A DNA stretch of 25,661 bases, taken from IMG/VR virus record IMGVR_UViG_3300045612_000491, positions 1-25,661 of that record. The stretch is one strand, 5' to 3'. The position numbers and the translations under genes are program-made. Within the stretch, counting starts at the first letter, position 1; each line of letters starts with the position of its first letter. Under the pieces are notes generated by a model. It searched no databases, was not told the origin of the DNA, and saw nothing but the letters and a program-made list of their open reading frames with translations. Below are positions 1 to 11,695 of this stretch, in pieces. Source of the DNA: a virus.

Positions 1-1013
1 ATGGTGGGTGTAGGTGTAATATTGATGCAGGCTGAGTCGTCGGGCACGGTGGGCTTACCTCCAAGAGTGTCTGTAAACCCAGAGCTAGTCGGGCAGTAGT
101 AAATCGTCAGGTTAACGTGGGTGCTTGAGAAAGCGCCATCCCCCACCGTGGGGGCATTCCCCTGCATGGTGATGCTAGTAAGGCTAGTGCAATTAAAGAA
201 CGCATAATCCCCAATGCTGGTCACGCTGTTGGGGATGGTGACGCTGGCAAGGCTGGTGCAATTAAAGAACGCAAAATTCCCAATGCTGGTCACGCTGTCG
301 GGGATGGTGACGCTGGCAAGGCTGGTGCAACCATAGAACGCACTATACCCAATGCTGGTCACGCTGTTGGGGATGGTGATGCTGGTAAGGCTGGAGCAAT
401 TTCTGAACGCACCATACCCAAGGCTGGTCACATATAAACCAATTTCTACAGCGGTTAAAGTTTTGTTGATGTTCCTGCTGGAATCTAACAACACCGTATC
501 ACTGCTGGTGCTGGTGGTTCCATCACTGTAATAGAAAATAGTCACAGATGATGTACGGGTGGGGGTTAATGTTGGTGTGCTAGTAGGAGTTGGCGTGGGT
601 GTTGGTGTAGCAGGATTGCCCGATAATGTTGGCGTGGGTGTAGTAGGATTGCCCGATAATGTTGGCGTGGGTGTAGTAGGATTGCCCGATAATGTAACCG
701 AAGGAGTTGGTGTGGGTGTAGTAGGATTGCCCGATAATGTAACCGAAGGAGTTGGTGTGGGTGAGGGCAATGGGTTATTTAGCGTTATATTATTTTTAGC
801 CACAACTATATATCCTGAATTACTAATAAAATGGGTAAATTGCGGGGCAATATCGAATGGTCTGTAGGTTCTTAGGACGTATTGAGATGGGGCTACTATT
901 TGTACCGCACATAAAGAAGCGCTAATCGAGCTTAATGCTATAGGTACTTCAAAAGGATATTGAAATACGGAGTATTTACCAAAAGAATCGCCAGGCAAAA
1001 TAATCTGATTCAT
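1..1013 (-). CDS. Thr/Pro-repeat protein with BspA-type leucine-rich repeats, probable distal tail fibre or adhesin (partial, C-terminus cut by window edge)
   Basis: The frame is open from an ATG at 1011-1013 to the window edge (at least 337 residues), so the C-terminus is missing. Residues 1-80 form a short folded-looking head; about 81-140 are Thr/Pro repeats built on LSGNP and TPTPTPSVT. Next come four 23-residue units of the type [15 protein letters not shown], the LRR_5/BspA pattern, then a [11 protein letters not shown] motif typical of the end of such domains, and another Thr/Pro stretch running off the edge. BspA-like LRRs are known as surface adhesion modules; a host-binding role here is inferred from that and from the position last in the tail cluster. 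The LRR part is near 50% GC against roughly 17-35% nearby, which suggests acquisition from another source. An ATAAATA box lies 7 bases before the start. Confidence 0.75.
165..432 (-). repeat. Tandem 69-bp repeat encoding BspA-type leucine-rich repeats
   Basis: Four near-identical 69-bp units are visible; the word gaacgca recurs at 198, 267, 336 and 405, exactly 69 bases apart. Each unit encodes one 23-residue LRR_5 repeat. The high nucleotide identity between units, not just amino-acid similarity, suggests recent expansion. In 181-300 about half the bases are G or C, far above the surrounding phage DNA. Confidence 0.9.
585..770 (-). repeat. 33/45-bp Thr/Pro-linker repeats (distal gene)
   Basis: The word aggattgcccgataat occurs at 612, 645, 678 and 723, so the spacing is 33, 33 and 45 bases. 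The units encode LSGNP(A/T)TPTPT with or without PSV. The same 45-bp unit recurs in the neighbouring gene around 1500-1620. Confidence 0.9.
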
Positions 1014-1032: not shown

Positions 1033-2607
1033 TTAAGATAAATTTACAACTCCATTTACAAAAATACCTGTAAATTGATAATTATTTCCTGGAGTACTAT
1101 TTAATTTATATCCAAAAGATGTACCTAATCTATCTGTTGTAAAATTAATAAAACTTCTAAAACTACCGCTTAAATTTACAGTCATAGTAACAAAATCAAT
1201 CGAACTACCACCATTATTAAAATAAACAGTATCAGCATAGTTGTAGGGTGAAACGGAATTAATTTCTATCTTTTGACCCGGGCTAACATTTTCTGGACCT
1301 ACTAAAGAAAATAGAAAGTTAGTACTAGAAGTTAATGACGGTGTCACACTGGGCGTTGCTGTTGTTGTAGGAGTAACCGGTAAACCAGATGCTGTGGGTG
1401 TAGTGCCCGGAATTCTTGTAGGTGTAAGCGTTTGGGTAGGGGTAGGGGTAGGTGTTGGTGTTGTTGTAGGAGTAACCGGTAAACCAGATGCTGTGGGTGT
1501 TGGTGTAGCAGGATTGCCCGATAATGTAACCGAAGGAGTTGGCGTGGGTGTAGCAGGATTGCCCGATAATGTAACCGAAGGAGTTGGCGTGGGTGTAGCA
1601 GGATTGCCCGATAATGTTGGCGTGGTGGGAGGGGTAGGAGTAGGGGTAGTCGGTAAACTAGATGCTGTTGATGTCGCTGTAGGTGTAATGCCCGGAATTC
1701 TTGTAGGTGTAAGTGTCTGAGTAGGTGTTTGTGTAGGGGTGGGTGTTGCTCCGGTATTAAAATATACGTTTCCTGCTATAAATGTACTGAAAAATTGTGG
1801 GTATGATTTATTAAACCCTTGTAGGCTATAACCAAACGGCTGACTAATTCTTGTTGATTCAAAGTCAACCTGAATTCTAGCTCTACCATCTACCCATATA
1901 CGCATGGGGGGAATAGCAGGCAACCCTCCAGTGCTTACCCCATTAAAACAAAAACTATCTAAATAGTTTTCAGCTGAAAATAAAGAAATATCTTCAACAG
2001 TATTATTACCTTCAACACAATATGAAAATGGGTTCGGTGTTGTCGAAGGAGTAATTGAAGGAGTAATTGATGGAGTGCTTGTTTGAGATGAGGTTGGAGT
2101 ATTGGTAGGTGAAGGAGTTAGTGTAGAAGTAGCGATAGGAGTAGGTGAATTTGAAGGTGTAGGTGTTTGTGTTGGTGTTTCTGATCGTGTTTCTGATGGT
2201 GTTTCTGATGGTGTGACTCCTATAGTTAGTGTAGGGGTGCAGGTATTCGTGATTGTAGGTGTATTTGTAGGAGTTTCTGTTTGTGTTGGCGTTGCTGTTA
2301 AAGTATTGGAAGGCGTAGGTGATTTGGTAACTGAAGGTGTAGGTGATTTGGTAACTGAAGGTGTAGGTGTATTTGTAGCTGTTTGAGAAGGCGTTACTGA
2401 TGCGGTTGGTGTGTTCGAGGGAGTTATAGAAGGAGTAGGTGAATTCGTTGGGGTTGATGTTACAGGTATACCTAGATCCGCAGCGATGCCCACAAATCCT
2501 TCTTGCATAATTTTTTCAAAACTCGTGCGACTTAATCGCTCTCTACGTAGACGATCGTTTGTACTTAAGTTGTCTAAAACCCGCGGATCTTTTTTACGCA
2601 CAGCCAT
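1033..2607 (-). CDS. Thr/Pro-repeat protein with two copies of a small folded domain, probable tail fibre component
   Basis: This 524-residue protein starts with a charged, probably helical segment (about residues 1-50), which may be its docking end. Long Thr/Pro/Ser repeats follow, interrupted by a folded domain at about 190-290. A second repeat block built from [15 protein letters not shown] and LTPTRIPGTTPTA units leads to a final domain at about 428-524. The two domains look related: FGYSLQGFNKSYPQFFSTF near residue 257 aligns with FGYKLNSTPGNNYQFTGIF near residue 498. No signal peptide or membrane segment is seen. The gene lies between two other Thr/Pro-rich genes downstream of the baseplate wedge genes, so a fibre or surface-decoration role is likely but unproven. 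A TTAAATA box sits 6 bases before the ATG. Confidence 0.7.
   Translation of the reverse strand: MAVRKKDPRVLDNLSTNDRLRRERLSRTSFEKIMQEGFVGIAADLGIPVTSTPTNSPTPSITPSNTPTASVTPSQTATNTPTPSVTKSPTPSVTKSPTPSNTLTATPTQTETPTNTPTITNTCTPTLTIGVTPSETPSETRSETPTQTPTPSNSPTPIATSTLTPSPTNTPTSSQTSTPSITPSITPSTTPNPFSYCVEGNNTVEDISLFSAENYLDSFCFNGVSTGGLPAIPPMRIWVDGRARIQVDFESTRISQPFGYSLQGFNKSYPQFFSTFIAGNVYFNTGATPTPTQTPTQTLTPTRIPGITPTATSTASSLPTTPTPTPPTTPTLSGNPATPTPTPSVTLSGNPATPTPTPSVTLSGNPATPTPTASGLPVTPTTTPTPTPTPTQTLTPTRIPGTTPTASGLPVTPTTTATPSVTPSLTSSTNFLFSLVGPENVSPGQKIEINSVSPYNYADTVYFNNGGSSIDFVTMTVNLSGSFRSFINFTTDRLGTSFGYKLNSTPGNNYQFTGIFVNGVVNLS
1366..1735 (-). repeat. Nested Thr/Pro-linker repeats shared with the neighbouring gene
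   Basis: A 45-bp unit containing aggattgcccgataat is found at 1510, 1555 and 1600. A second unit, containing gtaggagtaaccggtaaacc and cccggaattcttgtaggtg, appears near 1366-1430, partly near 1458-1500, and in diverged form near 1648-1715. The 45-bp unit is nearly identical to that in the distal gene at 600-765. Confidence 0.85.
2153..2375 (-). repeat. Short in-frame repeats in the N-terminal Thr/Pro linker
   Basis: A 12-bp unit (tctgatggtgtt type) is repeated three times near 2178-2215. A 24-bp unit (ggtgtaggtgatttggtaac plus tgaa) is repeated near 2318-2372. They encode SETPSETRSETP and TKSPTPSV peptides. Confidence 0.75.
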
Positions 2608-2744: not shown

Positions 2745-3854
2745 TTATGTTATAACGAAATTACCACCTATATCATCGTATCCAACGCCCTGTTGCGTGC
2801 CTGGTGTTTGAGTAACAGATGGTGTTATAGAGGGCGTTATAGTATTTGAAGGGGTAATAGAGGGCGTTATAGTATTTGAAGGGGTAATAGAGGGCGTTAT
2901 AGTATTTGAAGGGGTAATAGAGGGCGTTATAGTTCTTGTAACTGAAGGTGTAACTGTGCTTGTAGAAGTACGGGTTACTGTATTTGTCGGTGTTGCTAAA
3001 GGTGTCTTGGTAGCTGTAGGTGTTGGTGATAAGCCAGGGGTTGCAGTATTTGTAGGAGCAGGAGTATTAGTCGGCGTTGTTTGAGGTGTAGGTGTATTAG
3101 AAGGGGTTGCTAAAGGCGTTGATTGAGGCGTCGTTGTTGGTGTTGCTGTAGGAGTTCTTGTAGGTGCTAAAGTTGGAACAGGAGTATTTGTTGGTGTAGG
3201 TGATAAGTTCGGTATAAGCGTGGTTGTAGGTGTAGATGTGGCCGTCGACGTGGCTGTAGGTGTAGATGTGGCCGTCGACGTGGCTGTAGGTGTAGATGTG
3301 GCTGTAGGTGTAGATGTGGCTGTCGACGTGGCTGTAGGTGTAGATGTGTTTATTGGTGTGGCTGTAGGTGTAGGTGTGTTTGTTGGAGTTGCAGTCGACG
3401 TGGCTGTAGGTGTTAAATCTGGTGTAGAAGTTGCTTGAGGTGTACCTGTATTTGTTGGTGTTTTAGTTATAGTTGGTGTAACAGAGCTTGTTATATTAGG
3501 AGATACGTATGGTGTACCTGTTTGAGTAGGAGTAAGAGTAGGAGTAGCTAATGACGTTTTAGTGGGCGTTTGTATAGCGGTTCCAGTTGGCGTATTAGTT
3601 ATTGTAAGGGTAAGGGTTGGAGTTGGTGTCAATAACGCAGTTGGGGTTAGTGAAGGACCAGAGGAAGGCGTTGCTGTAGGAGTCGGCGTGGATGTTATTG
3701 AAGCAGTTGGTGTTTGTTTGGGTTCTATTGCTTGATCTCGAGCTACAGGGTCTTTACCTAATACAGACTTATATAAAGGAGAAAGTCTATCTAATTTATT
3801 TTTTCTTTTAAAGTTATTATTATTAATAACTTCTTCAATAGGTAATATGGCCAT
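2745..3854 (-). CDS. Thr/Pro-repeat low-complexity protein, probable tail fibre linker or surface protein
   Basis: This 369-residue protein has a charged N-terminus (about 1-47, containing [14 protein letters not shown]). Almost 300 residues of Thr/Pro/Ala/Ser/Asn repeats follow ([15 protein letters not shown] and [10 protein letters not shown] units), then a short tail with [13 protein letters not shown]. No catalytic motif, membrane segment or signal peptide is seen. It begins 3 bases after the stop of the propeller protein, so it is the last gene of the gp25-gp6-like wedge operon. A GGAG in the end of the previous gene lies 8 bases before its ATG. Such mucin-like repeats usually form extended, possibly glycosylated stalks; a stalk role on the baseplate is inferred. 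The function is not recognised. Confidence 0.65.
2826..2940 (-). repeat. 30-bp tandem repeat encoding [10 protein letters not shown]
   Basis: agggcgttat recurs at 2831, 2861, 2891 and 2921, an exact 30-bp period. The first three full units (agggcgttat agtatttgaa, then ggggtaatag) are identical. Confidence 0.9.
3223..3420 (-). repeat. 30-bp and 18-bp tandem repeats encoding (TP/ST)AT linkers
   Basis: The 30-bp blocks 3241-3270 and 3271-3300 are identical. An 18-bp shortened copy (3301-3318) and a further 30-bp copy with one change (3319-3348) follow, with more diverged units to about 3420. The pattern suggests repeat-number change by slippage or unequal recombination. Confidence 0.9.
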
Positions 3855-3857
3855 ACA

Positions 3858-6800
3858 TTACTCCAATACATTTAATCCTTTTGAAAGATAAAAAGAAAAC
3901 AGATTTTCAACTATTCCCTTATCTGATATCCAGTTTGTATATGAACTATTAAATGGAGATAAAGTAGTAAGACCGTCTTTCCAATTTATTATGTTATTGT
4001 AAAAAGTATTTTCCGGCTTATCTATAAATTCAAAAAATTTATAGTAGTTTCCTATATAAGATCCAGATATTGTATCAGATGCTACTAATCCCCATCCCCA
4101 ATCATTAGAATAAGATGAAAGAGGTACTGTGCTTAAAAGTGTAAATCTAGATTCATTTACTAGATTGTATGTGTCGGAAAATATTTCATATGCAATAATA
4201 GGTACCCCTATTGAAATTTTACTAGTAAGAACAGATAATTCAGTACCGCGATTTACAGCATAATAAGAATTATTTACAGATCCTTTATCATAAAAATTTA
4301 AATTAAATTTATTTTGATCGCCCCATAAAATATTATGTTTTAATGAAAGTAAATTAACTAATCTTTTTAGGTTAGGAGGAAACGGATAGTTATAATCTTC
4401 AAATTGAATCCCTAATTCGTAGCAAAACGATATTAGCGAATCAACATTACATTTGTCAATATCACCATTATTATCAATAAAATTAGCTATTTTTTCATAA
4501 ACAGTCTTACCTAGTGTATACGGCATAGAACTTACATTACCTACTATTGTTCCTAAAAACGTATCTAAAAAATTGTTATAGCTAAGCATAAAATCTTGAA
4601 AAGTAATCTGCTTATAGTATTCCGTCATATCAAAATTTTCATTTTCTTTTGTAAGTTCATACTTACCATTGGAAGAATATATATTAAAGACTGCAGAAGT
4701 ACCTGTAATGGTTCTAACTAAGGATTCAGAATACATGTATTTGTTAATCCATCTAAATCCGTTCCAATCGCCGTATGCTTGATATCTTTTTTCCTCCCAT
4801 GCAGAAATAGGATAAGATGTATCATCCAGCATACCCGGTAATAATGAAGCACTGTTTATCGGGTATGGCGGGTAAAACGCATCCACATAATAAATTCTTC
4901 CATCAATGTTATTAATAGCCCATATATACTGAGATGTATCACATATAATACCGTCAATGCTTTGAATATGACTTGTGTTATTAGCAGACCCTACCTTAAC
5001 ATCTGTACGTTGGGCTGTATATGCATCAATACGTGAAATAGTATCCCGATCATGTGAAACCCATGCATTCTGTCCACCATCTACACAAATATTACCAATT
5101 AATCTAAAGCCGGACAACGGATATTGAGGAATTAAATTGCCGTTAAAATCATATTTAAATAAATAATCGTTCCTAGATGATAAACTAAATGCACTTATTG
5201 TAGAATTGTTTAAGCAGGTTACCCAAACCATTTTATTTCTATCTACGCAAACTTCTACCGGTGAGTATAATGGTACGAACGGAATTACTTTTATTGTACT
5301 GCCGTATGTATTGTATTTTATTAGTAGAGAGCTTATCGGGTGCGTATAAGCAACCCAAAGATTATTATCAAAATCAGTATCTACAGAAGAAGGTAGAAGA
5401 GTATTTTCACCAGCAAAACCGCTAAGCTGAGGTAAATTATAATCAGAACTTAAATGATAAACTAAATTTTGATAATGCGGGTATGCTATATTTGTTATGA
5501 CACCCGACAGCGCATGTACTTTAACTGTTGAAATACTGTCAAACAAGGATACCCATATATCTGAATTTTTATCTAACGCAATACTATTAGGAGCAGCGCT
5601 ACTTAATACCGGTGATCTATAATTCAAATAAGCTACATTACCACTTGAATCTATAATAGTCTTAAAAGAAGTAAAGTCGAAAGAAGATAAAATTTCACCG
5701 GTGTTAGCATTTAATTTAAGAAGAGTATCTGCTACACCGTCTGCTACCCATGGGCGGTAGTCTTCTTCTACACCAGCTCCGGAAATTGCACATGCAATAG
5801 CGTATTGATTTCTGTTTTCATCAACAAATATATTTGTTTTTTGTGATGAGAGAAATATACCTACGGTACCTAAGCAAGAACTTATAATTTGCTGTCTAAA
5901 AAACCTTCCAATATATCTAGATTGTGGCTGTGCGATCCAAGAGATAAGAGTATCTTTAGGAAAATTAACGGGGTCTTCTACTAATACGGAACCCGTAAGC
6001 ACTACATTTTCTACTGAGTAAGGGCTTACTAGATATCCTTTGAAAAAGCCTCCAATAGTGTGCGGTGTCTCTTCATTAAAATCTTCATAAAAAGATATGC
6101 CTGTTAAAGGTGTATATGTTTCATTACTAAAAACCTTAGAATATTTGCATAAACCAAATTTTAAATCGTAGTAACCAGTAGCCGTTCTTGTATCCGTTAA
6201 AGATGATGATAGTGGTGGGTATGTTTTTGTTGTATAGTTTTCGTTATCTTTAAATTTTATAACGAAAGGTATTTCTGAATTTTGCCAGCTATGGTATGGT
6301 ATGTCGAACGAAGTTGCTGATAAATGACCTTCGCCGTCAATACCGTTAGTAGTAATAGAAAGACGTTGAGCAGGGTTATGTCTAACCTTAATAATAGGCA
6401 TAGTAGTATAATTAATATTTTGAAACCCGCCCGGTGGGTAAAGAACAAAATCAAAAATATTACTGTATGTTGAATAAAAATCTTTAAACTTACTATTATC
6501 AATGGACGCAAAAATAATTATTGGGTTTTCTCTTGATGTGTAATTTTTTACTTTATCATCAACGTAGTGTGCTTCGCATTGTCCAGTTGTACCACAAAAG
6601 AAGGACCCAGGATCATTTTTGTTACACAAAACTAATTGCTTATTATCATTTATTCTTGCATAAATTAAAACATTAGTAGTGCTTAACTTATCAACAACAA
6701 CATACTGTTCAGTGTCGCCTATTTTAAATTTACCGTAAAATCTTGAAAGAAGTCTAAGATGTGACCATTTATCGCTGTAATACCTACTAACATTAAGATA

Positions 6801-7292
6801 ATCACCAGAAGCACCAGAAGCATAAAAATTTATTGTATAGCCTTCTGCACTTAATGCAGGCCAAGATTGCCAGCTAGAATACCGGCGCACTACTAATGGT
6901 TCAATTAGTTTACTAGCCGGTACGTCATAAATTAACCTTTTAAAAACTTCAAATCTTATTTCATCATGAACAAAATCTCTTATAGTGATAATCGGCTGAT
7001 AAGTATTATCAAAAGCGTTACCCGCAGCATCGAAAACTGTTAAATTCGGTTTATATTTACCAGGCCATTTGTAAATGTGAATAGCTGTTAAATCTGAACT
7101 GTAAGTACCGTCACCAAAATCCCATCTAATTTTTTTATTGGAAATATTGTTTTCTGTAGAAAGTAGCGGAGATGTAGTAAAGTCCGGTACAAAAGTTAAC
7201 GGTGTTATATCAATAGTATAAGAAGATAAGCTACTACGACCGGAATAATCTCTTACATCGTAAAAGAGATATGTAAAGTTTGTAGTTGCCAT
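3858..7292 (-). CDS. Large baseplate-associated protein: PKD domain + beta-propeller + baseplate wedge-like C-terminus
   Basis: This 1144-residue protein follows the gp6-like gene with a 1-base overlap (TGATG), the place of the gp7-type wedge gene in T4-like clusters. Residues about 25-105 form a PKD-type domain (WDFGDGT at 57-63, then PGKY.PNLTVFD). From about 490 to 810, repeated blade-like segments (SDIWVSL, NNLWVAY, KMVWVTC, QNAWVSH, QYIWAI) fit a Vgb/NHL-type beta-propeller. Residues about 860-1144 look like a tail-protein domain (LKRLVNLLSLKHNILWGDQNK), resembling the end of wedge or tail-I-type proteins. Known PKD and propeller folds bind proteins or glycans; a role as an exposed wedge or receptor-contacting protein is inferred. 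The gp7 equivalence rests on position and the C-terminus only. GGGAG lies 5 bases before the overlapping TGATG. Confidence 0.65.
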   Translation of the reverse strand: MATTNFTYLFYDVRDYSGRSSLSSYTIDITPLTFVPDFTTSPLLSTENNISNKKIRWDFGDGTYSSDLTAIHIYKWPGKYKPNLTVFDAAGNAFDNTYQPIITIRDFVHDEIRFEVFKRLIYDVPASKLIEPLVVRRYSSWQSWPALSAEGYTINFYASGASGDYLNVSRYYSDKWSHLRLLSRFYGKFKIGDTEQYVVVDKLSTTNVLIYARINDNKQLVLCNKNDPGSFFCGTTGQCEAHYVDDKVKNYTSRENPIIIFASIDNSKFKDFYSTYSNIFDFVLYPPGGFQNINYTTMPIIKVRHNPAQRLSITTNGIDGEGHLSATSFDIPYHSWQNSEIPFVIKFKDNENYTTKTYPPLSSSLTDTRTATGYYDLKFGLCKYSKVFSNETYTPLTGISFYEDFNEETPHTIGGFFKGYLVSPYSVENVVLTGSVLVEDPVNFPKDTLISWIAQPQSRYIGRFFRQQIISSCLGTVGIFLSSQKTNIFVDENRNQYAIACAISGAGVEEDYRPWVADGVADTLLKLNANTGEILSSFDFTSFKTIIDSSGNVAYLNYRSPVLSSAAPNSIALDKNSDIWVSLFDSISTVKVHALSGVITNIAYPHYQNLVYHLSSDYNLPQLSGFAGENTLLPSSVDTDFDNNLWVAYTHPISSLLIKYNTYGSTIKVIPFVPLYSPVEVCVDRNKMVWVTCLNNSTISAFSLSSRNDYLFKYDFNGNLIPQYPLSGFRLIGNICVDGGQNAWVSHDRDTISRIDAYTAQRTDVKVGSANNTSHIQSIDGIICDTSQYIWAINNIDGRIYYVDAFYPPYPINSASLLPGMLDDTSYPISAWEEKRYQAYGDWNGFRWINKYMYSESLVRTITGTSAVFNIYSSNGKYELTKENENFDMTEYYKQITFQDFMLSYNNFLDTFLGTIVGNVSSMPYTLGKTVYEKIANFIDNNGDIDKCNVDSLISFCYELGIQFEDYNYPFPPNLKRLVNLLSLKHNILWGDQNKFNLNFYDKGSVNNSYYAVNRGTELSVLTSKISIGVPIIAYEIFSDTYNLVNESRFTLLSTVPLSSYSNDWGWGLVASDTISGSYIGNYYKFFEFIDKPENTFYNNIINWKDGLTTLSPFNSSYTNWISDKGIVENLFSFYLSKGLNVLE

Positions 7293-9145
7293 CAGTACTC
7301 CCTTACAAGAGACTGTATAGAAGGTGTAACAACAACAATTTTATTTACAAAATCTATAACATTGTTTATGTAAGGGAATTTATAATAGGGAAGCTGGGTA
7401 TCCTGTGAAATAATATCTATATCATCATATGGATACACGGGATTATATATCACCATACTTACACCAGGAACTTGATATGTGTTTCCATTATAAAGTGTCT
7501 TTGTTTTAATATCATCAACACCTTCTAAAGCTAATATTTCATTCGTTATGTCTGTAAAAGAAATTAGTTTTCCTAAATTATCTGAAGTAGTTGAAAAGTA
7601 ATTTTTAAAAATATCGTAAATTTGAAGTTTTAGTTCTTCAGGGTTTCTTTTGGCTGTTATGCTTCTGGTAATTTGCAAAGTAGCGTTGGTTGTTACATCG
7701 GGACTTAAAACAACATTAGGTATATTAACTGCAAAATCTAAACCTACATAAATAGGATCTATAATTACGGGCTCGCAGGTAGTAATTTTTATATCTAAAA
7801 GATCATTGAGAATGATCTGTTTTTGAGCTGAATTAAGATAATTTACCCTCGTAGTAAGAGATGTTAATTTGTTGAGTCTCGGTACAGCGTAAATATATAC
7901 ATTATTAAAATTACAAGAATCAGAAAATTTTACTTGATTAAAGAGCACACGAGAATTTAAATTAGGTTTATCTACTCCCAAATCAAAATAATATTTTAAA
8001 TGCCCGGAAGTATAATCCCAATTATTAACAACTTTAGAAGAACAAATTATATTACCGTAATTTTTATCTATAAACGTTTTAAAGTCATTACTAGTTATTA
8101 ATCTATACTGCGATTTAAATGTATTGAGAGCATTATTTTTAATGTTTTGAACGCTTTCACGTAAAACATACTGTGTAGAAGGATTGCTGTTCGTAAAAGT
8201 AATAAAAGTAGAATTATTATTATCAATAAGATTTATACCGGAGGGAATAATATTAGATTTTATTTGATCAAACCTTAGTGTTGAGTAGAAAAACAATCTG
8301 CTATTATTAAGTTGATTTGAACCTATCTCTCCTTTAGAGCCATTAGTTCTCAAATAATATATAGCAACTTCATCGTTTTCGTTAAGCTTTTTACCGGTAA
8401 CATTATTACCAAATTTAATTTCGTATCTTTCATTTTCATTCATTCTTATTTCATATGTATTACTATTGCTTTTTTCAAGAAAAAGTGACTGTGTAGGGGA
8501 CCATTGCTTCCAAGTAGGGTTATTAGAATTATTTTCCTTTACATAAACATGAATATTAAAGTGATCTATTTCGATATTATTGCCATTTGAATCTACTATA
8601 GTAATCGTTAATTGTTCGAAAGGTTCACCTGTTGCAATATATGAAGGATATTCAGTCCATGTACCTTGATACAGTAAATTATTTTCCTCTAAATCAGTTA
8701 ATCTTTCAAGTTCATTAGTTAATTTTGTAAAGGTAATATCTTTATTAAAAGTATAGTTTATACCATTAACAGTGAAATAAGAATATCTAGCTATAGTATA
8801 TGTACCCTGTTGAAGTGAAGTTGAACCTGTTGCTTCAAACGAAAGAATAGGTGTTTGATACCCTATGGGGTTGTAATTTAAAATTTTTACTATTTTATTA
8901 ATATTGTCATATATTTCAGAAGTTGAAAAGTTACTTTCTGATGCAGTCCTATTTAAATAAAATAAAAGTACGTGATATGCGTAAGAAACTATATCGATAA
9001 TTGAGTTTAAGTTACTTCCTTCATACCTTTGATCTGAAAATACATTAGATGTATTCAGTCGTTGAATAATAAGATTTTTAAGGCTAGTAGCATCGAATGC
9101 TACATAGCCGTCTGTAGGTAATGAGTAATCACTAAATTCTGACAT
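7292..9145 (-). CDS. Baseplate wedge protein, gp6-like (baseplate J family)
   Basis: At 617 residues this is close to T4 gp6 (about 660). The N-terminal part (about 25-100) has the helical pattern typical of the family, including SNLNSIIDIVSYAYHVLLFY and NINKIVKILNYNPIGYQTP. A beta-rich middle and the C-terminal region LYNGNTYQVPGVSMVIYNPVYPY follow. gp6 proteins dimerise to form the inner ring of the baseplate and drive the change that triggers sheath contraction. The gene begins 2 bases after the gp25-like stop and shares 1 base with the next gene, so the three are surely co-transcribed. No late-promoter box is found before it. The family assignment is firm; detailed structure cannot be judged from sequence alone. 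Confidence 0.85.
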   Translation of the reverse strand: MSEFSDYSLPTDGYVAFDATSLKNLIIQRLNTSNVFSDQRYEGSNLNSIIDIVSYAYHVLLFYLNRTASESNFSTSEIYDNINKIVKILNYNPIGYQTPILSFEATGSTSLQQGTYTIARYSYFTVNGINYTFNKDITFTKLTNELERLTDLEENNLLYQGTWTEYPSYIATGEPFEQLTITIVDSNGNNIEIDHFNIHVYVKENNSNNPTWKQWSPTQSLFLEKSNSNTYEIRMNENERYEIKFGNNVTGKKLNENDEVAIYYLRTNGSKGEIGSNQLNNSRLFFYSTLRFDQIKSNIIPSGINLIDNNNSTFITFTNSNPSTQYVLRESVQNIKNNALNTFKSQYRLITSNDFKTFIDKNYGNIICSSKVVNNWDYTSGHLKYYFDLGVDKPNLNSRVLFNQVKFSDSCNFNNVYIYAVPRLNKLTSLTTRVNYLNSAQKQIILNDLLDIKITTCEPVIIDPIYVGLDFAVNIPNVVLSPDVTTNATLQITRSITAKRNPEELKLQIYDIFKNYFSTTSDNLGKLISFTDITNEILALEGVDDIKTKTLYNGNTYQVPGVSMVIYNPVYPYDDIDIISQDTQLPYYKFPYINNVIDFVNKIVVVTPSIQSLVREY

Positions 9146-9655: not shown

Positions 9656-10306
9656 ATGGGTAGGAGAAGAATAAATAATTATGTGAATAAAAAATTTGTC
9701 AAGTTGTTTGAAGCGACCATATCTAGGTTTAATCGAGGTGGGTTTTTAGCTAGTGACAGAGTTTCGTTTGTTGACAATGTTTTACGTAATGATTATTTTA
9801 AAAAACAGCCAGAAGAATTAGCTAATGCAGTTAAAGAGTTAATAAATTGTGGTCTTAACTTGAGAGTAAAAAATATTAAGTCCACTTTTCCTGCTGTCGG
9901 GGGAGCAGGGAATCCAGATAATTTTGGATATAGTTTCGCTGTTGAAGTTGCACCAGAAATAGCTCCAGGTAGATTGGATACTAATAAAACTGTTACCGTT
10001 CCTGCTGAACTTTTAGTACGCCAGGACGATGGTATAAATTTACCTCCCGTACCAGATTCGTTGGTAAGAAAAGATAGTTCATATATTAAACCTAAAAAAA
10101 CATCAGATATTAAACAAGAAGAAATTCCCTTTTATCGCCCACATAATCAAACACATTTATCTAATGTAAATGGTAAAAATGTTGAGGGCGATAGAGAGCT
10201 TAAAAATATTAATGTTACAATTCCGTCTTCGCCTGCTGTTGGTGTAAAAGACCCTGCCATATCAGGTTTTCCAGACAGTTATACGATAGCTTATTTACCT
10301 AAGTAA
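9656..10306 (+). CDS. Phage protein of unknown function, N-terminal basic domain
   Basis: One of two plus-strand genes. An upstream TTG at 9614 is in frame but lies inside the gp25-like coding region; the ATG at 9656 (MGRRRINNYV) is preferred and gives 216 residues. Residues 1-80 include KKFVKLFEATISRFNRGGFL followed by ASDRVSFVD and LNLRVKNIKSTFP, possibly a small beta-barrel-like fold. The GGFL..DRVSF pattern resembles uncharacterised proteins of marine T4-like phages, from memory only. The C-terminal half is rich in Pro, Asn and Lys and looks loosely folded, with VTVPAELLVRQDDG at the junction. No catalytic motif is seen. It converges on the clamp-loader gene, overlapping its end by 8 bases. 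Function not recognised. Confidence 0.7.
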   Translation: MGRRRINNYVNKKFVKLFEATISRFNRGGFLASDRVSFVDNVLRNDYFKKQPEELANAVKELINCGLNLRVKNIKSTFPAVGGAGNPDNFGYSFAVEVAPEIAPGRLDTNKTVTVPAELLVRQDDGINLPPVPDSLVRKDSSYIKPKKTSDIKQEEIPFYRPHNQTHLSNVNGKNVEGDRELKNINVTIPSSPAVGVKDPAISGFPDSYTIAYLPK

Positions 10307-11243
10307 TATCGGATAGCTGTATAAAACAGCTATAGCAATTTATTTCTTGGTCTACAACAAATGCGCTTCTGTATAAATGCTCTGCAATTATTAGAAGGTA
10401 TTTTTTTTTAAGCTCTAAATTTAATTCAGTTTCATTATAGAATTTTTCATCTATAAAATTAAATAAACCTCTTAGTAAATTTACATAATCTGAATTAAAT
10501 TTTTGCTCATTTTCAATTAACGACTTTCTTAATGAAAGTATATTTTTAGATTGAATATTAGTAAGAATAAGTTTCAATACATCGTTAGTTTTGTTTTCAA
10601 CTATAGATAACTTGCCTGAAGAAGATGCTTTATGTAGTTCGTTTATACATTTACGGAGATCGGGGTAAAAAGTTTTTACTATGTGTGCAACTTTTATTTT
10701 ATCTTGTTCAGATATAGATATATTTTCATTCTTTAAAATATATAAACATCTTTTTGCAACAAAAGTAAGTGGAGGTACTAAATCTAGACTCTGGCATCTG
10801 CTTTGAAGAGCAATAATGATTCTGTGTTTATAGTTAGCAGTAAGAATAAAACGAGTAATTTTAGAGTGCTCTTCCATAGTGTTGCGAAGAGCTCGTTGTC
10901 CATCAAGAGAAAGACCGTCCGTTTCATCTAAAATTATAACTTTTATTTTGCCATCTATACTTTTAGTTTGAGCGAAGTTAGTAACTTTAGTTCGAATAGT
11001 ATCAATACCGTTTTCATCACTTGCATTTATATATAAATACTGACACTTTAAAATATCATTAACAATAATTTTAGCTAATGATGTTTTTCCTATACCGGGC
11101 GTTCCTGTAAATAATAAATTAGGTATTTCATTTTTTTCAGTAAATGAATTAATAACAATTTTATTTTCTTCTGAGATAACAAAATCATCCAACGTTTTAG
11201 GTCTGTATTTTTCGACCCATATATTATTAAAATCTAAACTCAT
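10299..11243 (-). CDS. 44: Sliding-clamp loader ATPase subunit (T4 gp44 / RFC small-subunit type)
   Basis: At 314 residues it is nearly the length of T4 gp44 (319). The family's N-terminal signature WVEKYRPKTLDD is at 9-20, Walker A GTPGIGKT at 47-54, Walker B VIILDETD at 102-109, sensor-1 TAN at 135-137 and the SRC motif with its arginine finger at 148-150. Proteins of this type use ATP to open the sliding clamp and load it on primer-template DNA for the replicative polymerase. In T4-like phages the clamp also supports late transcription, which may be relevant to the late-type boxes here. The partner subunit (gp62) and clamp (gp45) are not in the window. Its start overlaps the dut stop (ATGA). 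Finding a replication gene between hub and wedge genes is unusual. Confidence 0.95.
   Translation of the reverse strand: MSLDFNNIWVEKYRPKTLDDFVISEENKIVINSFTEKNEIPNLLFTGTPGIGKTSLAKIIVNDILKCQYLYINASDENGIDTIRTKVTNFAQTKSIDGKIKVIILDETDGLSLDGQRALRNTMEEHSKITRFILTANYKHRIIIALQSRCQSLDLVPPLTFVAKRCLYILKNENISISEQDKIKVAHIVKTFYPDLRKCINELHKASSSGKLSIVENKTNDVLKLILTNIQSKNILSLRKSLIENEQKFNSDYVNLLRGLFNFIDEKFYNETELNLELKKKYLLIIAEHLYRSAFVVDQEINCYSCFIQLSDIT
10313..10333 (+). terminator. Candidate hairpin terminator for the plus-strand gene
   Basis: Seven bases after the stop of the gene at 9656, ATAGCTGT pairs perfectly with ACAGCTAT across a 5-base loop (ATAAA). An AT-rich run (AGCAATTTATTT) follows, not a clean T tract, so termination would be weak. 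The hairpin lies inside the 3' end of the convergent clamp-loader gene. Confidence 0.35.
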
Positions 11244-11695
11244 TTACCAGAGGATCCAAAACCTTTATCATTTCTATCTGTTAACTCTGCTGTACCCCAA
11301 TCTATAGCCATAGGTATATTTAAATATAATACAAACTGAGCAATGCGTTCCCCAGCTTTAATTTCATAGTCTTTGTCTCCTAAATTATAAAGTTTAATAC
11401 CCGCGTCACCTCTATATCCATTATCAATTATACCTGGATGAGCGAGTATACTGTGTTTAAAACCTAATCCGCTTCTACTTTCGACTTTAATCCAATATCC
11501 GTCTGGTATACTTGCAAATTTTAACCCGACGTTAACTATGTTATTACCTTTAGAGGGTATAATTTTATCTTCGATAGAATATACATCAAAACCAGTATCA
11601 GATTCATGATTTTTTGTAGGAAGTTTGGCATTGTCATGGGTCTTTTCAAATTTTAAAACAGGCATATATAATAAATTAGGATCGCTGTAATACAT
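11240..11695 (-). CDS. dut: Deoxyuridine 5'-triphosphate nucleotidohydrolase (trimeric dUTPase)
   Basis: This 151-residue protein has all five motifs of homotrimeric dUTPases: ESDTGFDVYS (31-40), SRSGLG (73-78), GIIDNGYRGDAGIKLYN (88-104) with the catalytic Asp and the uracil-stacking Tyr, GERIAQFVLY (115-124), and RNDKGFGSSG (141-150), the C-terminal arm that closes over the triphosphate. It hydrolyses dUTP to dUMP and pyrophosphate, which keeps uracil out of phage DNA and feeds dTMP synthesis. The ATG at 11695 is used here; Met11 (ATG at 11665) would fit the usual family start better and cannot be excluded. It is the first gene of a two-gene unit with the clamp loader. A weak TATAAAA box lies 7 bases before the first ATG. 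Confidence 0.95.
   Translation of the reverse strand: MYYSDPNLLYMPVLKFEKTHDNAKLPTKNHESDTGFDVYSIEDKIIPSKGNNIVNVGLKFASIPDGYWIKVESRSGLGFKHSILAHPGIIDNGYRGDAGIKLYNLGDKDYEIKAGERIAQFVLYLNIPMAIDWGTAELTDRNDKGFGSSGK

Follow-up and report, generated by a model that had tools for sequence, protein, structure and literature searches.

A duplicated, unnamed beta-domain on Thr/Pro stalks in a putative fibre protein of an uncultured contractile-tailed phage

The 524-residue protein P1 of an uncultured, contractile-tailed phage carries two copies of a small, unnamed head domain, predicted to be a beta-sandwich. It is encoded at positions 1033..2607 on the minus strand of a 25,661-base IMG/VR fragment, here called the window, which is the whole stretch of DNA analysed. 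Sequence comparison indicates that the two copies, A and B, are the product of a real and old intragenic duplication in what looks like a modular phage fibre protein. Together with members D, E, F and G from other phages they form a new domain family within a known kind of system. On balance, P1 is probably a fibre or adhesin attached to the virion, with the domains serving as interchangeable adhesive heads. Among related phages, likewise uncultured, the head domain so defined is seen to move from one stalked fibre gene to another.

The open reading frame and its translation divide P1 into an N-terminal peptide, stalk 1, head A, stalk 2 and head B, all on the minus strand. The N-terminal peptide is a basic segment of 43 residues (the non-stalk residues 1-43; 2479..2607) and a putative virion anchor. 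The first Thr/Pro stalk (residues about 44-190; 2038..2478) was delimited by composition masking and repeats, and the second (residues about 287-427; 1327..1749) by composition masking and the DNA repeats D3 and D7. Head domain A, the mid-stalk copy, lies between them (residues 191-286; 1750..2037), and head domain B is the copy at the C-terminal tip (residues 428-524; 1036..1326). Both heads were defined by pairwise comparison, BLASTP and leave-one-out profiles, and B additionally by AlphaFold2. Each is about 95 residues long and follows about 140-150 residues of stalk.

The relationship between A and B is evident in several comparisons. BLASTP aligns them over 76 residues at 29% identity (3e-6), and a Smith-Waterman alignment gives z=8.1, with none of 2000 shuffles scoring as well. 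Leave-one-out profiles recover A at 1.6e-10 and B at 4e-11 among 2302 open reading frames. The initial annotation had aligned two short segments of P1, correctly placed: FGYSLQ begins at residue 258 and FGYKLN at residue 498. The alignment spans about 76-90 residues, well past the 19 quoted there, which are the most conspicuous stretch of a match over the entire domain. AlphaFold2, given six divergent sequences, predicts B as an all-beta domain of eight strands, with a mean pLDDT of 79.9 and a pTM of 0.73. Of the five models, three are similarly confident and the other two are poor, with a pLDDT of about 50 or less. Searches for the domain in Pfam, PHROGs, NCBIfam and PDB sequences returned no convincing match. 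Whole P1 has no match in Pfam, and its matches in PHROGs are confined to the low-complexity stalk. The annotation's proposal that an unnamed beta-domain is repeated along Thr/Pro stalks is supported.

Direct scans for further copies were carried out in several databases. Scans of IMG/VR with B, A1 and A2 gave no confirmed match, and those with E and F each returned only the contig from which the query was known. A tblastn search of INPHARED with P1, B and D gave no match, and a scan with E of one reference genome per GTDB species gave none. Since the direct scans yielded no close relatives, related phages were fetched through their gp6 genes (80 loci), and the fibre regions of those loci were then searched.

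Clear members outside the window were found on two contigs. Contig G003 has one copy in each of two genes. D lies mid-stalk in a 930-residue protein (locus L007) whose N-terminal domain was read by eye as lectin-like, Pfam giving no match to it, and E forms the tip of a 516-residue protein (L085). Contig G029 holds two to three copies in three consecutive genes. F is a free-standing open reading frame of 101 residues, G is the tip of a 167-residue stalked protein, and H, the tip of a 379-residue stalked protein (L094 16652-17791), is probably a member as judged by its profile scores (E=0.0015 within one genome, 0.03 among local open reading frames). The suggestion that several fibre genes use the unit therefore holds for these related phages, and fails for the gene that follows P1 in the window. 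All six clear members (A, B, D, E, F and G) are recovered in leave-one-out runs at 4e-16 to 2.4e-4 (D 1.7e-8, E 4e-16, F 7.9e-7, G 2.4e-4), and the best non-member over all runs scores 0.07. The C-terminus of the L091 protein (5740-7425) reaches 0.23 among local open reading frames and a pairwise z of 4.7 to E. The C-terminal heads of L088 and L090 were compared as candidate distant members, and the comparison gave no support. The family is sparse, with no clear member in the majority of the remaining records that were searched.

The genes around P1 are those of a tail-fibre neighbourhood. PHROGs profiles identify a sheath protein (phrog_23, 8e-69), a gp25-like baseplate protein (phrog_261, 1.6e-19) and a gp6-like baseplate protein (phrog_219, 1.5e-45) in the window, which likewise encodes a tape-measure-like protein. 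In the order of transcription, the tail and baseplate genes are followed by a PKD-containing protein of 1144 residues (3858..7292; Pfam PKD_4, 6.2e-9) and then by the Thr/Pro-rich proteins P2, P1 and P0, all on the minus strand. In relatives, too, the PKD gene stands immediately behind the gene for the baseplate wedge; its L003 homologue is 56% identical, and L007 11860-15315 is a PKD carrier too. P2 (369 residues; 2745..3854; open reading frame and composition masking) is nearly all Thr/Pro stalk (residues 43-355) without a globular head, and may be either a fibre that ends without one or a partner stalk. A common N-terminal anchor for P1, P2 and the protein that carries G (L094 18136-18639) was considered and set aside, the sequence similarity not being significant.

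P1 is inferred to sit on the virion with its stalks extended and its heads binding a receptor. The N-terminal segment would anchor the protein near the baseplate, and the Thr/Pro stalks would be extended and flexible. The heads would bind a ligand of the cell surface, either glycan or protein, and two of them on one chain would add reach and avidity. The two copies in P1 are most likely swappable tips that grip host cells.

A different role for the domain is that of a structural spacer or oligomerisation unit, which would register three chains along the stalk without itself binding a receptor. Trimerisation by small beta units is known from other fibres, and both A and D lie mid-stalk, between two Thr/Pro runs, where copy A could indeed be a structural spacer. 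However, the domain is at the tip of the protein in B, E and G and stands alone in F. The identity of the other members to B, at 15-37%, is also a better fit to diversifying heads than to a conserved register unit. The predicted monomeric fold, together with the existence of a free-standing open reading frame of 101 residues, tends to favour a head that functions by itself over a unit for trimerisation. A purely structural role is rated unlikely.

In another reading, the domains are general Ig-like decorations, which would bind an environmental polysaccharide or mucus-like matrix instead of an infection receptor, a role that has been proposed for the Ig-like domains of phages. The Ig-like adhesin domains of phages, such as T4 Hoc, PKD, BACON and Big_2, are likewise small, modular, all-beta units that are repeated on virion-associated proteins and thought to be adhesive, and phages adhere to epithelium through proteins with Ig-like domains (PMC13370021). 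Foldseek shows a weak resemblance of the model to a mixture of Ig-like and adhesin sandwiches in the PDB, but nothing significant there (best E 0.22) or in BFVD (best E 0.05), with TM-scores of at most about 0.4. Profiles of the Ig clan (Ig, PKD, Big_2, fn3) gave no significant match in Pfam scans of P1 and three members, and no relative with a known binding function was detected by sequence or fold in the databases searched. Unlike the Ig-like adhesins, A and B lack a match in Pfam, PHROGs or NCBIfam and a significant fold match, and they sit on Thr/Pro stalks encoded by a cluster of tail-fibre genes beside the baseplate genes, not on the capsid. Such a matrix-binding role seems improbable.

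The interchangeable-head reading of P1 has parallels in the modular fibres and adhesins of T4-like and jumbo phages. These share a conserved N-terminal part, variable distal heads and a position adjoining the baseplate wedge genes. Here, by contrast, the linkers are, as far as the sequence tells, long low-complexity Thr/Pro stalks and not coiled coils or beta-helices, and the A/B head family is unnamed. No description of such a combination of stalk and head was found in the literature searched.

That A, B and the N-terminus of the next protein, P0, are three copies of one domain, as the initial annotation proposed from a Y.L...PQF..F spacing seen by eye, is highly improbable, with pairwise scores not above those of shuffles (A, z=-0.7, p=0.80; B, z=0.9, p=0.18), a profile-profile probability of 0.2% between the two families with no alignment, and a match of the P0 N-terminus to a different module. 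The peptide YVLRTYRP does begin at residue 45 of P0 as quoted, and the spacing is a chance match. Of the three segments to be compared, A and B proved to be related, and that of P0 to neither at the sequence level.

P0 runs off the end of the contig, and all its parts lie on the minus strand. Its N-terminal domain, C (residues 1-82; 768..1013), represents a second module family and is not a copy of A or B. It is followed by a Thr/Pro stalk (531..794; composition masking) and a head of BspA-type leucine-rich repeats (residues 196-299; 117..428; Pfam PF13306, E=1.5e-35). A relative of C is found in a stalked protein of 328 residues (L094 18668-19654), in which a module of about 90 residues (YRP...THFQPGS.Y) occurs twice in tandem at the N-terminus. 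The tandem units, c1 and c2, match each other with z=12.4. C matches the second with z=8.0 (p=0.0002) and the first more weakly (p=0.012), and a profile of both units finds C only at an E of about 0.04. C is similar to this module family, a link based on few sequences. In the window and in L094 alike, the gene with the second module comes directly after a gene with an A/B-type domain. A scan of IMG/VR with the C-family alignment recovered only a contig in which the query had been found before. Structure prediction, which is informative for B, gives an unusable model for C (pLDDT 46.7).

Evidence that heads have been exchanged is provided by the relatives, whose N-terminal parts are homologous and bear different heads in equivalent positions. 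The lectin-like N-terminal domain bears D in L007 and, according to Pfam, proprotein-convertase P-domains (P_proprotein) in L009 and L012; the heads at this position in L010, L013, L014, L019 and L039 cluster by sequence with those of L009 and L012. Likewise, the N-terminal anchor domain that bears E is joined to RCC1 repeats in L091, and in L088 and L090 to an unrelated head. The BspA-type leucine-rich repeat (PF13306), P_proprotein (PF01483) and RCC1 (PF00415) heads occupy equivalent positions on Thr/Pro-stalk proteins of the same neighbourhood, and are unrelated in sequence to A and B.

The stalk DNA is repetitive as well. Repeat units of 45 nucleotides are common to the stalk of P0 (window 582-763) and stalk 2 of P1 (1414-1640), with up to about 85% DNA identity. 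This sharing suggests a recent exchange between the neighbouring genes. With units about 85% identical, the stalk DNA is a credible site of exchange, and it probably serves as the crossover point for head swapping. The swapped heads on the N-terminal parts of relatives, the BspA-type repeats of P0 and the shared stalk units together point to interchangeable adhesive heads carried on stalks near the baseplate.

A further observation concerns the stalks themselves. In nine relatives (L007, L009, L010, L012, L013, L014, L019, L039 and L094), there is a gene for a GlcNAc-transferase of family PF11397 whose start lies 31-57 bases downstream of a fibre gene with a Thr/Pro stalk. Its sites are L007 21257, L009 20881, L010 20849, L012 20233, L013 20846, L014 20221, L019/L020 20272, L039 20482 and L094 2244, where L020 seems to be a duplicate of the L019 locus. 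The assignment is confirmed by Pfam in L094 (4.9e-70) and, through a search, in 12 out of 27 records; the nearest matches in cultured phages are in the jumbo phages XacN1, CM1 and RAS14 (43-48% identity). The window, which is a fragment, has no PF11397 gene.

The family includes the eukaryotic enzyme that glycosylates the hydroxyproline of Skp1. As the transferase gene directly follows the stalk fibre gene, the stalks may be O-glycosylated by the phage enzyme, giving rigid mucin- or extensin-like stalks that show the swappable heads; this is a tentative and rather doubtful proposal. If it held, the phage would build mucin-like fibres; we know of no phage fibre with a glycosylated stalk. An equally good alternative is that the gene block containing the transferase modifies cell-surface or other glycans, since it also contains FkbM- and TylF-type methyltransferases and more glycosyltransferase-like genes. 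Further genes resembling glycosyltransferases or methyltransferases follow in L094 and L085. A prolyl hydroxylase (PF13640) was considered as a partner of the transferase and is absent from the records of the transferase-bearing relatives.

Two other features of the window may be mentioned. Genes read from their sequence as a clamp-loader-like ATPase (10299-11243) and a dUTPase-like protein (11240-11695), both on the minus strand, lie within the tail cluster, and the same pair occupies the same place in L003, L007, L009, L023 and L041. Antisense to the Thr/Pro stalks, on the plus strand, there are Gly/Val-rich open frames (559-867, 1394-1720 and 2102-2386), which are most likely artefacts of codon composition and not genes.
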